From contig NZ_VBWP01000002.1 of NCBI RefSeq assembly GCF_005771635.1, forward strand, positions 62,001-126,000: 64,000 nucleotides of DNA, read 5' to 3'. Position 1 is the stretch's first letter; each line of letters begins with the position of its first letter. Made by a program: the position numbers and the translations under genes. The stretch is from Culicoidibacter larvae (GTDB lineage: Bacteria > Bacillota_I > Bacilli_A > Culicoidibacterales > Culicoidibacteraceae). This document shows, piece by piece, positions 484-58,179 of this stretch. The notes under the pieces were generated by a model. That model was not told the DNA's origin, ran no database searches, and saw only the letters and a program-made list of their open reading frames with translations.

Positions 484-1944
484 CTATTCTTCTTTTGTTT
501 TCGTTTCTTTCATTAACTTTTTAATATCATCAGCAACAAACTGCACATCTACACCAATAATAACTTGGGCTGCAGTTTTTGATGTCTTCATAACTCCTGC
601 TGCTCCGGCAGACTTGATCTTCTTTTCATCAATAATGTCAGCATCTTTTACATCTAAACGTAAACGAGTTGAACAGTTATCAATGGTAACAATATTATCT
701 TTACCGCCAAGTCCTTCAAGAATTCGAGCTGCTTTTGAACTTTCGACAGCAATAGTATCATCGATTTCTTGTTCATTCGTTTCAAAATCATCTTCGCGTC
801 CAGGTGTTTTTAAATTGAAAGCTTTGATGACGAAATAGAAAATAAAGAAGTATACAAAGAAGAAAGCAACTCCCATAATTAGCAAGCCAATCGGATTGGT
901 TGCTAAACCAAAGTTAAGTACATAGTCAAATAATCCTGCTGAAAAGCCGAACCCATGCAAGAAGCCAAAAATGTTAGCCAAGAATAAAGATAATCCGGTT
1001 AACGCTGCATGGATAACATACAGTACCGGTGCAGCAAACATGAATAAAAATTCAATTGGCTCAGTAATCCCGGTTAAGAATGCAACTGCCGCTACCGAAA
1101 TAACTGCCGATAAAATTTCTTTACGGTTTTCTTTTTTAGCTGTTGCTGCCATGGCAAACCCAGCTCCCGGAAGACCAAACATCATAACTGGGAAGAATCC
1201 TGCTTGATAAATTCCGGCAGTTGGATCTCCAGCTAAGAAACGGAAAATATCTCCATAAACCGGAACTCCGGCTCCGGCCCCAACTGTTGGTATAAATTCA
1301 CCAAAGTTAAACCAGAAGATTGAATTAAGTACGTGGTGTAAGCCAAGCGGAATTAATAAACGGTTGAAGAAACCGAATAATCCTGCGCCAATTGCACCAA
1401 GTGAAATCAACCAATCGCCAAATGCTGAAATTCCTGTCCAAACAAATGGCCAAACAAAGAATAAAATTGCTGCTAAAATCAATGAGAAAATCGATGTTAG
1501 AATTGGCACTAAACGGCGTCCTGAGAAAAAGCCAATCCAAGCCGGCAACTTAGTCTCACTAAAACGATTATAAGTCACCGAGGCAATGATACCGACCAGA
1601 ACCCCAATTAAGACGTTATTAGACACTTTACCAAATGCTGCTAACGCCATCTCGTCAGTAACGCCATACGATTCAACTGCTGCTGGTGCCAATACCCCAA
1701 TAACAACATAAAAACCGATTAATCCGGCTAGTGCCGCAGCACCATGATTGTCTTTTGACATCCCGAAAGCAATACTAATCGCAAACAATGCTGCCATATG
1801 GTCCATAATTGCACCACCGGCAAGACTAATAAATGGAATGTCTAATACATCCGCAGCTCCAATACGAAGTAAAATTGCTGCCGCCGGCAACGCTGCTACC
1901 GGGAGCATCAACGATTTTCCAATTCGTTGTAAATACTTTAACAT
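484..1944 (-). CDS. nagE: PTS N-acetylglucosamine-type permease, EIICB
   Basis: This is a membrane phosphotransferase permease that takes up and phosphorylates an amino sugar, most likely N-acetylglucosamine. About 390 residues of hydrophobic EIIC precede a C-terminal EIIB domain of about 75 residues. The phosphorylated Cys lies in DNCSTRLRL. The EIIC sequence, for example GRRLVPI, NRLLIPLGLHHVLN and FGLPGAGFAMA, matches NagE-type better than glucose-type permeases. No EIIA domain is present, as in Bacillus NagP, so a shared EIIA encoded elsewhere would be needed. The chosen ATG has GGAGGAT seven bases upstream; the upstream extension of the open frame has no such signal. A promoter and a palindrome lie upstream. 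Confidence 0.87.
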   Translation of the reverse strand: MLKYLQRIGKSLMLPVAALPAAAILLRIGAADVLDIPFISLAGGAIMDHMAALFAISIAFGMSKDNHGAAALAGLIGFYVVIGVLAPAAVESYGVTDEMALAAFGKVSNNVLIGVLVGIIASVTYNRFSETKLPAWIGFFSGRRLVPILTSIFSLILAAILFFVWPFVWTGISAFGDWLISLGAIGAGLFGFFNRLLIPLGLHHVLNSIFWFNFGEFIPTVGAGAGVPVYGDIFRFLAGDPTAGIYQAGFFPVMMFGLPGAGFAMAATAKKENRKEILSAVISVAAVAFLTGITEPIEFLFMFAAPVLYVIHAALTGLSLFLANIFGFLHGFGFSAGLFDYVLNFGLATNPIGLLIMGVAFFFVYFFIFYFVIKAFNLKTPGREDDFETNEQEIDDTIAVESSKAARILEGLGGKDNIVTIDNCSTRLRLDVKDADIIDEKKIKSAGAAGVMKTSKTAAQVIIGVDVQFVADDIKKLMKETKTKEE

Positions 1945-30529: not shown

Positions 30530-31654
30530 CTAATCAAGCAAAAAAGCTTGTAAAACCTCATTTGACACAAAAATTCCCTCCTGTGCCAAACGAATATAGC
30601 CGCCAACTACCTCCAGCTTTTCGGTCGCAATGAAGCGAGCAACTATATCTCCGTAAATCTCCTCAAATGGGGTATTGAAACGGCGCCCGAATTCCGCCGG
30701 GTCAATACCCTCACGCTTTCTTAAACCAAGAAAAACAAACTCCTCCATCTGAGCTTGCTGGCTTAATCGCTCTTCAGCCACAAGCGGACGTTCTCCCTGT
30801 TCAAGCATAGCTATATACTTATTAATCGAACGAGTATTACCATAACGCACTCCAGCAATATAACCATGCGCACCTAAACCTATACCGTAATATTCATCTG
30901 CATTCCAATATGTTAAATTATGCCGGCTCTCAAACCCAGGTTTTGCAAAATTACTCACTTCATAATGCTCATAACCAGCTTCCTGCAAAGCTTCCTGGAC
31001 ATAAGAATACATCACAAACTGCAATTCCTCATCAGTCTCACTAAACCAGCCCTGCTTCGCACCAATACCAAACACCGTATGTGGTTCAACAATTAACGCA
31101 TAAGTAGAAATATGGGTCACTTCCAAATCAAGAAAATGGCTGATATCTTTTTGCAAATCCGCCAAAGTCTGCTTAGGTAAAGCATAAATAAAGTCAATAT
31201 TAATATTAGTAAAACCTGCACGCTTAGCATCGCTAATACACCGTTCAACATCAGATCGACTATGTGTACGCCCTAACAACTGCAGGCGCTCCTCATCAAA
31301 AGTCTGCACCCCAATACTCAATCGATTCACTCCGGCCTGTCTTAAGAATTCCAGCTTCGCAAAGGTAAGCGATTCAGGATTGGCTTCAAAAGTACATTCC
31401 GTGTTTTCACCAATAAAAGGATTTATTGCTGAAAATAAATACTCCAGTTCTTCCAAATCCATACTTGATGGCGTTCCGCCACCAAAATACACCGTACGCA
31501 ATGGTCTCGCCTCCGGAAGCAGCAATGCTAGTTCACGATGCAGCTGCGTAATATATTCATGCCGTGCCTGATTGGCATAATAAATTTTGGAAAAATCACA
31601 GTATGTGCAAATTTGATTACAAAATGGAATATGGATATATAAAGCATCAATCAC
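30530..31654 (-). CDS. hemW: Radical SAM heme chaperone HemW
   Basis: This 374-residue protein has the N-terminal cluster motif CNQICTYCDF and YFGGGTPSSM. It has the HemW-type C-terminal domain rather than that of oxygen-independent coproporphyrinogen oxidase. Family members bind heme and deliver it to respiratory enzymes. It sits directly upstream of hrcA, as in Bacillus. No heme biosynthesis genes are seen in the window. Confidence 0.9.
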   Translation of the reverse strand: MIDALYIHIPFCNQICTYCDFSKIYYANQARHEYITQLHRELALLLPEARPLRTVYFGGGTPSSMDLEELEYLFSAINPFIGENTECTFEANPESLTFAKLEFLRQAGVNRLSIGVQTFDEERLQLLGRTHSRSDVERCISDAKRAGFTNINIDFIYALPKQTLADLQKDISHFLDLEVTHISTYALIVEPHTVFGIGAKQGWFSETDEELQFVMYSYVQEALQEAGYEHYEVSNFAKPGFESRHNLTYWNADEYYGIGLGAHGYIAGVRYGNTRSINKYIAMLEQGERPLVAEERLSQQAQMEEFVFLGLRKREGIDPAEFGRRFNTPFEEIYGDIVARFIATEKLEVVGGYIRLAQEGIFVSNEVLQAFLLD

Positions 31655-31752
31655 TTGATTTACCTCCGATATAATTCTCTTATCAACAAAGCTACACTTG
31701 CCTTGCTGATGATCAGGTTTAATTATATCACATATATAAAGACTGGTGAAAA

Positions 31753-32000
31753 TAAAAAAAAGCTATTGGCGAGGTAAGCCAATAGCTGGAAAACGTTACA
31801 AACGTAACCGTTTTTTATAAGAGGATATATATGAAAAAGTTTTTTTATTTAAAGGGGTGTTTTGGAAAGAATCATTCAAATCTGTTTGGGTTAAATTTGG
31901 ATGAAATACCGCCTTTATTTTTACCAAACAAGTTGGGTCGCTCACTTGGTATGCTTTTATTATAGGACAATAACATGTGCTTTGGTTGTTCTGTATGTGT
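31753..32000. repeat. Tandem structured element, copy 1 (candidate small RNA gene)
   Basis: Hairpin A has 10-bp arms 31761-31770/31778-31787 and loop GAGGTAA. On the minus strand a T run follows, so it can end a minus-strand transcript with loop UUACCUC. Hairpin B follows, with GTTAC/GTAAC (31795-31799/31804-31808) and outer AAAAC/GTTTT pairs. Then comes the conserved block ATAAGAGGATATATATG and, at 31959-31964, a minus-strand TATAAT. A plus-strand frame of 44 codons (31831-31965) is not conserved in copy 2 beyond six residues. Its strand and function are unknown. Confidence 0.6.
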
Positions 32001-32035
32001 AGTTTATGTGAAGTTTAGAAATTTGCTTTAAAACA

Positions 32036-32310
32036 ATAAAAAACTACCGGGGAGGTAACCCGGTAGCTCAAAACGTTGCAACTGCAACTGTTTTTATATA
32101 TATAAGAGGATATATATGAAAAAGTTTTTTTATTTTTTAAGGATTTATATTATTAAAAAGTTTTTATTTTTTTATCATATTTGTTCTGCTCGCTCGTATC
32201 GAACCACCTCCTCCAAGATATTAAATTCTGTCTTACTTGTTGTCTTTATCTTGGTATGCTTTTAGTATACAGGTCTGATATGTTGTTCAATTGTTCACTA
32301 TGTGTTCTTT
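32036..32310. repeat. Tandem structured element, copy 2 (candidate small RNA gene)
   Basis: This has the same order as copy 1. Hairpin A has arms 32044-32051/32059-32066 (CTACCGGG) and the identical GAGGTAA loop. Hairpin B has GTTGC/GCAAC (32075-32079/32084-32088), then the ATAAGAGGATATATATG block. A minus-strand TATACT is at 32264-32269. Stem bases differ from copy 1 but pairing is kept (GTTAC/GTAAC against GTTGC/GCAAC), which indicates selection on RNA structure. The offset between copies is about 285 bp in the first half and 305 bp in the second. Confidence 0.6.
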
Positions 32311-32362
32311 ATATGGAGATAAACTTACAACATTGTCAGTTCATATTTTTGGAGAAAAAAAT

Positions 32363-32394
32363 AAAGCCAAGTCTGACAAGCAGACTTGGCTTTT
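32363..32394 (-). terminator. Intrinsic terminator after rny
   Basis: A stem of about 13 bp (AAAGCCAAGTCTG and its complement) with an ACAAG loop. The T run is on the minus strand. Confidence 0.88.
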
Positions 32395-32397
32395 CCT

Positions 32398-33960
32398 TTA
32401 CTTAGCAACTTCAGAAACCCTTACCTCACGGATAACAGTAACTTTAATTACCCCTGGATATTGTAGTTCGTTTTCAATTCGTTCTTTAATTTTTCCGGCA
32501 ATTACATGTGCGCTAACATCATCCACTTGCTCTGGGTAAACAATAACCCGAATTTCACGACCAGCTTGAATAGCAAATGATTTTTCCACACCATCAAATG
32601 ATGTTGAAATTTCTTCAAGTGCCTCAAGACGTTTTACATAGTTTTCAATTGATTCGCTGCGAGCACCAGGACGACCAGCACTTAATGAATCAGCTGCAGC
32701 AACTAATGTTGCAATGACGCTGGTTGCTTCCTTATCACCATGATGTGATTCGATAGCATTAATAACAACGGCATTTTCTTTATACTTCTTAGCAACTTCA
32801 GCACCTAAAGTGACATGACTGCCTTCAACTTCATAATCAACTGCTTTTCCAATATCGTGCAGTAATCCAGCGCGGCGAGCTAGAGTGACATCCTCACCTA
32901 ATTCTCCGGCCATCAATCCGGTTAAATAAGCAACTTCAACAGAATGTTTAAGCACATTTTGCCCATAGCTTGTCCGGAAATGTAAACGACCTAATAATTT
33001 CACCAGTTCCGGATGCATATTACCGACAACTGTTTCAAATACTGCCTGTTCACCAGCTTCTTTAATCATTTGGTTAACATCACGAGATGCTTTTTCAAAT
33101 AACTCTTCAATTCGTCCCGGATGGATACGTCCATCCTCAACTAATGCTTCAACCGTTTGCTTAGCAACTTGCCGGCGTACCGGATCAAAGCAAGAAAGTA
33201 CAACTGCTTCTGGTGTATCATCAATAATTAAATCTACACCGGTTAATGATTCAATAGTTCGAATATTTCGACCTTCACGACCGATTAAACGACCTTTCAT
33301 ATCATCACTTGGCAAGTTCACAACCGATACAGTTCTTTCAGTTGTTACTTCAGCAGCATAACGCTGAATTGCAAGTGATAAAACATTTCTGGCATTCTTG
33401 TCAGCATTTTCTTTTGCTTCCAATTCCATCTGACGAACATAACTTCCCAACTCATGCGAAATTTGTTCCTCGGTTCTTTTAAAAATCTCTTCTTTAGCTT
33501 CATTGCTGGTAAACCCTGCAATGTGTTCAAGTTTTTCGGTTTGTTGTGATATCAGATTCTCGATTTTTACTCGTTCTGTATCTAAATCACTGTTTTTCTT
33601 TTGTAATGTGTTTTCACGATCCTCGATTGCTTTTTCACGTTTTTCAACTGCTGTTTGGCGCGACTCAAAATTCTCCTCACGCATCAACAGTAACTTTTCA
33701 CGTTCATTTACCTCACTTTTACGTTCGCGAATTTCTTGTTCATTATCCATTTTAAGTATATGAACTTCTTCTTTAGCTTCCAATAATAATTCTTTTTTTC
33801 GAGCTGCCGCTTCTTTTTCGGCCTCTACTAACATTCCTTCAACTGTTTTACCAGCTTTTTTAAAATTATTAATAACAGCTTTACGACTAAAAAATGCTGC
33901 TAAAAGCGCAGTGGCAAGCAATACGGGGATGAAAATCAATATCAAAACTTCTGTTGACAT
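32398..33960 (-). CDS. rny: Ribonuclease Y
   Basis: This 520-residue membrane-tethered endoribonuclease starts mRNA decay in many Firmicutes. It has one N-terminal span (about residues 4-24), a long charged coiled coil to about residue 200, a KH domain ([16 protein letters not shown]) and an HD domain with the catalytic LLHDIGKA. Its length matches the family. It lies downstream of recA as in Bacillus. Confidence 0.97.
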
Positions 33961-35851: not shown

Positions 35852-36241
35852 ATATACTCTGTAAGCCATGTTCTGTGTTTTTGTACGCAAACAGCCCTAA
35901 GGCCTTGTACAAAACAGTAATCATTTATCTGTGCACGAAGCACCCCGAACTTTGTTCATTTCCATCGTTCAGGCTCCCCTACCAAATTTGGGTTTCTCGC
36001 TCGCGGGGTTTACCAACGTTTCACCAGCAAAGTTTCCAATGCAGATTCGTCTCTGTGGCACTTTTAAAGATGACCTATCATATTGCAAGCAACTTAGATA
36101 AATCATGCAGCCGTACGGCTCTGGGAAGCCGTCTATCGCTTATTTTTTCGCAATACACGAACACTACAAACATCGCAGTCTGTGCGAGCATGGACTTTCC
36201 TCAACAATAATAAATTATTGCAGCGATTACTCGAGTATAAT
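35852..36241 (-). ncRNA. rnpB: RNase P RNA, class B
   Basis: On the minus strand, the 5' part has GAGTAATCGC and GAGGAAAGTCCATGCTCGCA. The middle has AAAGTGCCACAGAGACGA, GGTAAACCCC and GCGAGAAACCCAAATT. The 3' end has ACATGGCTTACAGAGTATA. All match the conserved regions of Bacillus-type RNase P RNA. P1 is formed by TATACTC (36239-36233) and GAGTATA (35859-35853). The ends are set from P1 and may be off by several bases. Location next to gpsB is as in Bacillus. Confidence 0.95.
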
Positions 36242-57318: not shown

Positions 57319-57545
57319 AAAAAAGTCGTCCATTACAAAATAAAATTTGTAAAGGACGACTGTGTATCTACAATCGTGGTACCACCTTTATTCGTGTTTC
57401 CACCTCATTTTGTTGATAACGGAGAACAGCTCCGATTTTACCTAAACATATGTAGTCTTCAGTAAAATAACTCCTGAGTGATTTCAATACTGATTTCATA
57501 ATAAGGCTCACACCATCCCTTACTCGCTCTTTATAAAAGATTCAA
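57319..57545 (-). promoter_or_regulatory. T-box riboswitch (tRNA-Ile) with terminator
   Basis: On the minus strand, stem I starts near AGAGCGAGTAAGG (from about 57532) and has GATGGTGTGAGCC. The candidate specifier ATC (57480-57482) in GAAATCACTC is an Ile codon. A CGGAG/CTCCG stem follows. The T-box TAAAGGTGGTACCACG (57375-57390) contains TGGT, able to pair with tRNA-ACCA. The terminator is GTCGTCC...GGACGAC (57325-57360) plus a T run. Uncharged tRNA-Ile should allow read-through into ileS. Confidence 0.93.
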
Positions 57546-57573
57546 TATCTACTTGTCTCAATCAATGCTTTTA

Positions 57574-58179
57574 TTATTGTTCATCGTCAAGAATTAATGG
57601 CGGCAATTCAGGTTCGGTTTGGCCACCAGTTTGTTGCTGATTTAAGAAATCATCAAATGCACCAATACTAAAATCAGAAGTATTTTCTTGCGGTGCAGGT
57701 TCTAAAACATCCGGACTTTCATAACCGTCTAAACTACTGACAACTTCTCGCCAAACATCATCGTCGGTTAACTCAAGCTGTGCTTCAAGCAACAATTTTA
57801 AGCGTTGTTTAAAGACATCAACATCTTTTTTCATACGCTCAATTGCAGTTAAAGCATCTTTAGCCTGAACTAAAGCCTCTTCCACAATGCGATCAGCATT
57901 TACTGCTGCGTCATCAATAATTTGTTGCGCTTCCTGTTCAACAATTTTCTGCAAATCAGTTGCTGCTTCTTCAGCAACCATGAGAGCTCTTTTCAAAGTG
58001 TCTTCCATATTGCGGTAATTTTGCAAATCAGTTTCAAGTTGACTGCAACGATCCATTAAGTCTTTATTCTTTTTTTGCAATTCAAACTGTTCAGTAGTTA
58101 TTGATTCTAATAATGAATCAACATCTTGTTTCTTATATCCGCCAAACATAGTTTTACGTATTGCAGTTGATGTTGACAT
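57574..58179 (-). CDS. divIVA: DivIVA-family protein
   Basis: This 201-residue coiled-coil protein has an N-terminal lipid-binding module (FGGYKKQDVDSLLESI), a divergent form of the GYxxxEVDxFL motif. A long coiled coil to about residue 145 and an acidic, Gln-rich tail follow. DivIVA marks curved membrane at poles and septum. Gene order sepF-ylmH-divIVA-ileS is standard. ylmG, usually between sepF and ylmH, is missing. Confidence 0.9.
   Translation of the reverse strand: MSTSTAIRKTMFGGYKKQDVDSLLESITTEQFELQKKNKDLMDRCSQLETDLQNYRNMEDTLKRALMVAEEAATDLQKIVEQEAQQIIDDAAVNADRIVEEALVQAKDALTAIERMKKDVDVFKQRLKLLLEAQLELTDDDVWREVVSSLDGYESPDVLEPAPQENTSDFSIGAFDDFLNQQQTGGQTEPELPPLILDDEQ

Follow-up and report, generated by a model that had tools for sequence, protein, structure and literature searches.

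The 743-base gap between hemW (30530-31654, minus strand) and rny (32398-33960, minus strand) contains two members of what is very probably a set of four sibling genes for trans-acting small RNAs (sRNAs), which are predicted to be activated by a regulator and to pair with the starts of uptake genes. Positions refer to the window, the whole 64,000-nt stretch of DNA that was analysed, and both flanking genes were confirmed by NCBIfam. The original prediction had proposed a pair of sRNAs in the style of LhrC, with segments complementary to Shine-Dalgarno (SD) sequences; this is still the best reading and our results support it, except that the genome holds four siblings and not two. The gap and its two tandem modules are present in the sequence, and every element described for them was found: both hairpins with a GAGGTAA loop, the second hairpin of each module, the ATAAGAGGATATATATG blocks, and a -10 box at each far end. 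When copies 1 and 2 are aligned, the mean column identity is 78%, with the maximum in the part containing the hairpin and ATAAGAGGATATATATGAAAAAG and in the -10 box. Repetition of the module within the gap far exceeds chance, and five terminator-like sites are observed there vs 0.4 expected from shuffles.

The strand of these modules had been left unsettled. We now choose the minus strand because both copies carry intrinsic terminators with U runs there; the conserved promoter described below also reads in the minus direction only. The T run that follows the first hairpin had been likened to a terminator, and on the minus strand the first hairpins are of just this kind, AGCTATTGGC-TTACCTC-GCCAATAGCT followed by T8 and GAGCTACCGGG-TTACCTC-CCCGGTAGTTT followed by a T run. 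Hairpin 2 has an A-rich 5' arm on the minus strand, and the T run that follows it on the plus strand is the complement of this arm. On sequence grounds, the predicted sRNA genes of the gap can be assigned to the minus strand. The plus strand could instead encode a translated leader or a small protein, with hairpins, an SD (AAGAGGA), and ATG AAA AAG TTT, and would then represent an attenuator or a family of small membrane peptides. Each copy does have a perfect SD and ATG at the same place, where an open frame begins MKKF, but the resulting peptides of 44, 49, 7, and 30 aa are unrelated beyond MKKF. Conservation of the peptides rather than the stems had been named beforehand as evidence against an RNA element, and when checked, the plus-strand peptides proved to be unconserved. 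Moreover, the covarying hairpins lie upstream of the plus-strand "SD", the terminators and the promoter point the other way, and conservation ends at the start-codon region, as it would in a sequence that mimics mRNA starts in antisense. We therefore regard plus-strand translation as very improbable and describe the modules as minus-strand sRNA genes.

On that strand, a terminator belonging to rny (32363-32393, found in the terminator scan) separates the sRNA genes from rny, and hemW has its own promoter (31722-31750, minus strand; TTCACC-17-TATAAT with an extended TG) that follows the copy 1 terminator, so that the order is rny terminator, copy 2 promoter-sRNA-terminator, copy 1 promoter-sRNA-terminator, and hemW promoter. 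Copy 1 begins with the direct repeat CACATA-N5-CACATA (31994-32010, minus strand), a putative activator (response-regulator) box, followed by the -10 box TATAAT (31959-31964) and then AAAAGCAT, an arrangement that is conserved in all four copies; transcription would start near 31952. The predicted sRNA of about 200 nt (31754-31952), defined by the span from promoter to terminator, contains the anti-TIR block AAAAACUUUUUCAUAUAUAUCCUCUU (31819-31844), antisense to an SD and AUG AAA AAG; hairpin 2 (31790-31814), with one compensatory pair relative to copies 2 and 3; and a 10-bp terminator hairpin with the loop UUACCUC (31761-31787), from which the U run reaches 31754. Copy 2 is built likewise on the minus strand. 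Its putative activator box is the direct repeat CATATA-N5-CACATA (32299-32315), its -10 box is TATACT (32264-32269), again followed by AAAAGCAT, and its start is placed near 32257. The predicted sRNA of about 220 nt (32036-32257, from the same kind of span) carries a block identical in sequence to that of copy 1 (32104-32129), a hairpin 2 that covaries among the copies (32070-32094), and an 11-bp terminator hairpin with the loop UUACCUC and a following U run (32041-32069), which was identified by the terminator scan and by covariation.

A genome search located two further copies at unrelated loci, copy 3 (G000:C6, L021 5364-5601) and copy 4 (G000:C8, L022 1482-1676). Copy 3 closely resembles copy 2 in sequence, and copy 4 has the same promoter and block with a different terminator, one long hairpin whose loop is C8. 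The RNAs predicted from copies 3 and 4 are about 180 and 140 nt long. Downstream of copy 4 are an XRE-cupin regulator and an ABC operon of the spermidine/putrescine type, and the predicted start of the permease gene there has an SD with GGGGG. The "-10-like box" noted originally is real, although it belongs to a larger 46-nt promoter motif, ACACATANNNAACAN9CATN10TATAMTAAAA, which has exactly four zero-mismatch matches in the 2.5-Mb genome, one per copy. By sequence, each module is a free-standing unit running from promoter to intrinsic terminator. Pairwise identity among the copies is 63-82% in the promoter and 20-56% in the spacer between promoter and block, while the 26-nt block is 100% identical in copies 1-3 and 92% in copy 4; the conserved parts are limited to the promoter, the block, and the terminators (both terminal hairpins in copies 1-3). 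Fold z-scores of the minus-strand RNAs are -4.2 (copy 1), -3.7 (copy 2), -5.2, and -4.7.

The claim of covarying stems and a conserved RNA structure holds up. Across copies 1-3, 98.4% of cells in the stems are paired, vs 37-51% when the partners are slid, and double-sided compensatory changes occur in 4 of the 21 pairs. This covariation supports the predicted hairpins; coming from three sequences, it is no gauge of long-term conservation. Four dispersed copies, two of them in tandem and all confined to one genome, could also be explained by a MITE-like repeat, small and mobile or recombinogenic, that regulates nothing, yet the similarity is bounded by promoter and terminator, three blocks are fixed while the spacer has diverged and the stems compensate, and copy 4 combines the shared promoter and block with a terminator of its own. 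An origin as an inert repeat is barely credible to us, and the sRNA family is retained as the explanation for the four copies.

The family appears to be narrowly distributed. A covariance model, R1, detected no homologue outside this genome among 60 relatives, and in 395 genomes of the class, this one included, only copies 1-3 fell below E = 0.001, with none in the other 394. Three distant relatives gave weaker R1 matches (E 0.01-0.05), as did G000:C5:24583 (E 0.039); we discounted these, and neither of the two that were inspected has the other features. A loose pattern scan of the genome contigs yielded 12 scattered and unrelated matches, which were taken as chance. The family matches no Rfam family. 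Elsewhere in the window, Rfam models identify a class B RNase P RNA (35857-36238, minus strand, 281 bits) and a T-box leader (57349-57574, minus strand, 117 bits). As far as the genomes searched show, this predicted sibling sRNA family is limited to this species or genus.

It had been remarked that no strong -35 is visible, and we agree: no good -35 was found 16-18 nt from the -10 box in the sRNA promoters of the gap. What is conserved upstream of the -10 box is a set of direct repeats phased at 11 bp, CACATA-N5-CACATA in copy 1 and one-mismatch versions of it in copies 2-4; the autocorrelation of the four promoters is strongest at 11 bp (z = 5.3). Repeats phased in this way occur in promoters that are switched on by response regulators of the OmpR family. 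This would account for the missing -35, and by this analogy transcription is probably activator-dependent, with an OmpR/PhoB-type response regulator bound at the repeats and substituting for a -35. Searched by itself with one mismatch allowed, the repeat pattern has 17 matches vs 10 in the control, barely above it. Beyond the four copies, the two best matches to the promoter motif both precede two-component system genes, and each is weak alone. One, with three mismatches, precedes by ∼160 nt a response-regulator/kinase pair of the OmpR family (G000:C1:179820, L051); it is without the N5 repeat and we do not claim it as a link to the regulator. The other, the best extra match of sequence model R2 (E 0.0135), precedes a second pair of kinase and regulator genes (G000:C10:56872, L080); an insertion is needed to align it, chance matches in other genomes are as strong, and it is likewise not claimed.

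The block AAAAACUUUUUCAUAUAUAUCCUCUU is exactly complementary to AAGAGGAUAUAUAUGAAAAAGUUUUU, which comprises an SD, a spacer, a start codon, and codons 2-5, and by sequence the anti-SD and anti-AUG segment is present in all four copies. In the predicted folds, the mean unpaired probability is 0.74 over the CUUUUUCAUAUAUAUCCUCUU part of the copy 1 block, and the block is partly paired in copy 2 (0.36) and copy 3 (0.42), a weakness of the proposed pairing with targets. Two segments complementary to ribosome binding sites had been proposed, and their complementarity to the SD stands, but targeting probably depends mainly on the 26-nt block and not on the UUACCUC loop. A minus-strand RNA could also act mainly by titration, as a sponge for RNA or ribosomes, or through the terminator loop alone, given that UUACCUC is invariant and fully exposed in copies 1-3 and that CCUC-type sequences resemble the 16S anti-SD. 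The block, however, is also conserved opposite AUG and codons 2-5, positions for which a plain anti-SD would have no use, and copy 4 is without the UUACCUC loop yet retains the block. We consider titration or action of the loop alone improbable as the main mode, and we take the block to be the segment through which these sRNAs would pair with their targets.

The closest genomic complement of the block found outside the sRNA genes lies at the start of a gene for a MetQ-type lipoprotein (G000:C5:83632, minus strand; L064 4828-5643), where 21 contiguous pairs span the SD, the AUG, and codons up to the fifth. In a sample of 331 gene starts covering ∼14% of the genome, this start ranks first at -28.0 kcal/mol; the mean over the 331 starts is -11.4 kcal/mol (sd 3.5), and shuffled segments have means of about -8 to -9.5 kcal/mol. 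Models of this genome's start regions give an expectation of 1.6e-5 to 1.1e-4 sites of this kind genome-wide, or perhaps 1e-3 once the selection of the best 21-nt stretch is taken into account. The complementarity of the block to an mRNA encoded elsewhere, that of the MetQ-type lipoprotein, exceeds chance. A second candidate, from a pattern search, is the start of an amino-acid-binding ABC lipoprotein gene, ATTATATTTATGAAAAAGTTTA (G000:C8:62646, minus strand). Both candidate genes lie directly behind a gene for a PepV/Sapep-type dipeptidase. The two loci, fetched because they matched, have the order PepV/Sapep dipeptidase followed by ABC substrate-binding lipoprotein in common (L064 4828-7036 and L066 1842-4093). 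The N-acetylglucosamine PTS IIBC gene of the window (484-1944, minus strand), with the start GGATATATATATGTTAAAG, has the third-best pairing in the sample (-21.1 kcal/mol), and the start of a zinc-binding lipoprotein also ranks high. The predicted targets are suggestive of an enrichment in transporters. Lipoprotein genes often start with ATG AAA AAG, and some enrichment is to be expected regardless.

In the mechanism that we propose, a response regulator, probably of the OmpR/PhoB type, would bind the CACATA-N5-CACATA repeats and switch on transcription, and the RNA would then pair via AAAAACUUUUUCAUAUAUAUCCUCUU with mRNAs that start SD-N5-7-AUG AAA AAG, foremost those of the substrate-binding lipoproteins of amino-acid ABC transporters, the MetQ-like one first. 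Pairing would block ribosome loading, expose the mRNA to decay, or both, and the terminator loop, UUACCUC in copies 1-3 or C8 in copy 4, may serve as a second seed for SD sequences. A Pfam search in which the controls worked recognized no Hfq in the genome, so pairing probably rests on long complementarity.

Such a circuit has precedents. The csRNAs of Streptococcus, encoded by the ccn genes of the CiaRH regulon, number two to six siblings per genome, both tandem and distal, are 51-202 nt long, act additively, and have targets that include transporters; most have two stem-loops and some the terminator stem-loop only, and an unpaired segment between the stem-loops is antisense to the SD and AUG (PMC3091779, PMC4507080, PMC4211561). 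A CiaR box, TTTAAG-N5-TTTAAG, lies 10 nt upstream of the -10 box of csRNA genes (PMC3091779). The present family resembles the csRNAs in its several siblings, its hexamer-N5-hexamer box upstream of the -10 box, and its anti-SD/anti-AUG segment, which is present by sequence in all four copies and predicted to be only partly unpaired in copies 2 and 3; copy 4 is like those csRNAs that have a terminator stem-loop only. It differs in that the repeat is CACATA-N5-CACATA, which is not a CiaR box and ends ∼29 nt upstream of the -10 box, and none of the csRNA families in Rfam is called here. LhrC1-5 of Listeria monocytogenes are likewise multicopy sRNAs, in which a CU-rich loop and a single-stranded stretch pair with the SD of targets including the mRNA of oppA (oligopeptide-binding protein), and they are activated by the response regulator LisR (PMC5880928). 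Multiple copies and C/U-rich SD-pairing segments are shared with the present family, as would be two-component control and a binding-protein target, which we infer here, but the targeting block differs. LhrC (RF00616) is the best Rfam match for copies 2 and 3 (26.4 and 29.0 bits; 17.7 and 17.3 for the other two), and membership was rejected because the best score of 29.0 bits compares with a gathering score of 110 and unrelated loci of this genome reach 24-26 bits with the same model. RsaE/RoxS and other UCCC-motif sRNAs of Staphylococcus and Bacillus pair with the SD through C-rich segments; they are not siblings of the present kind, and RsaE/RoxS had no match in Rfam scans up to E = 10. In proteobacteria, GcvB represses many mRNAs for the binding proteins of ABC transporters. 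The same is true of AbcR1/2 (PMC4211561), and neither of these proteobacterial families tested positive here for a relation in sequence or structure. As predicted from its sequence, the present family works like csRNA and LhrC and is a member of neither.

A more specific history can be offered tentatively, as a conjecture that we think unlikely, though not far-fetched. The lineage-specific family would have been born from the antisense strand of a lipoprotein-type start (SD-ATG AAA AAG TTT TTT), would have come under a two-component regulator by promoter duplication, and would now silence the mRNAs of "MKK" lipoproteins and transporters in general, without Hfq. If true, a silencer family of antisense origin would show how such families arise convergently in Bacillota.

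On the broader reading, the four related genes probably form a real family of sibling sRNAs by which targets in amino-acid uptake would be turned down. The absence of a recognizable Hfq, together with the 21-base match to one lipoprotein mRNA, makes a direct and simple test possible. This would be the third family in Bacillota, after csRNA and LhrC, in which siblings share a regulator-type promoter and an anti-start segment for uptake genes, and because it is not recognizably homologous to either, it suggests that the same circuit evolved convergently.
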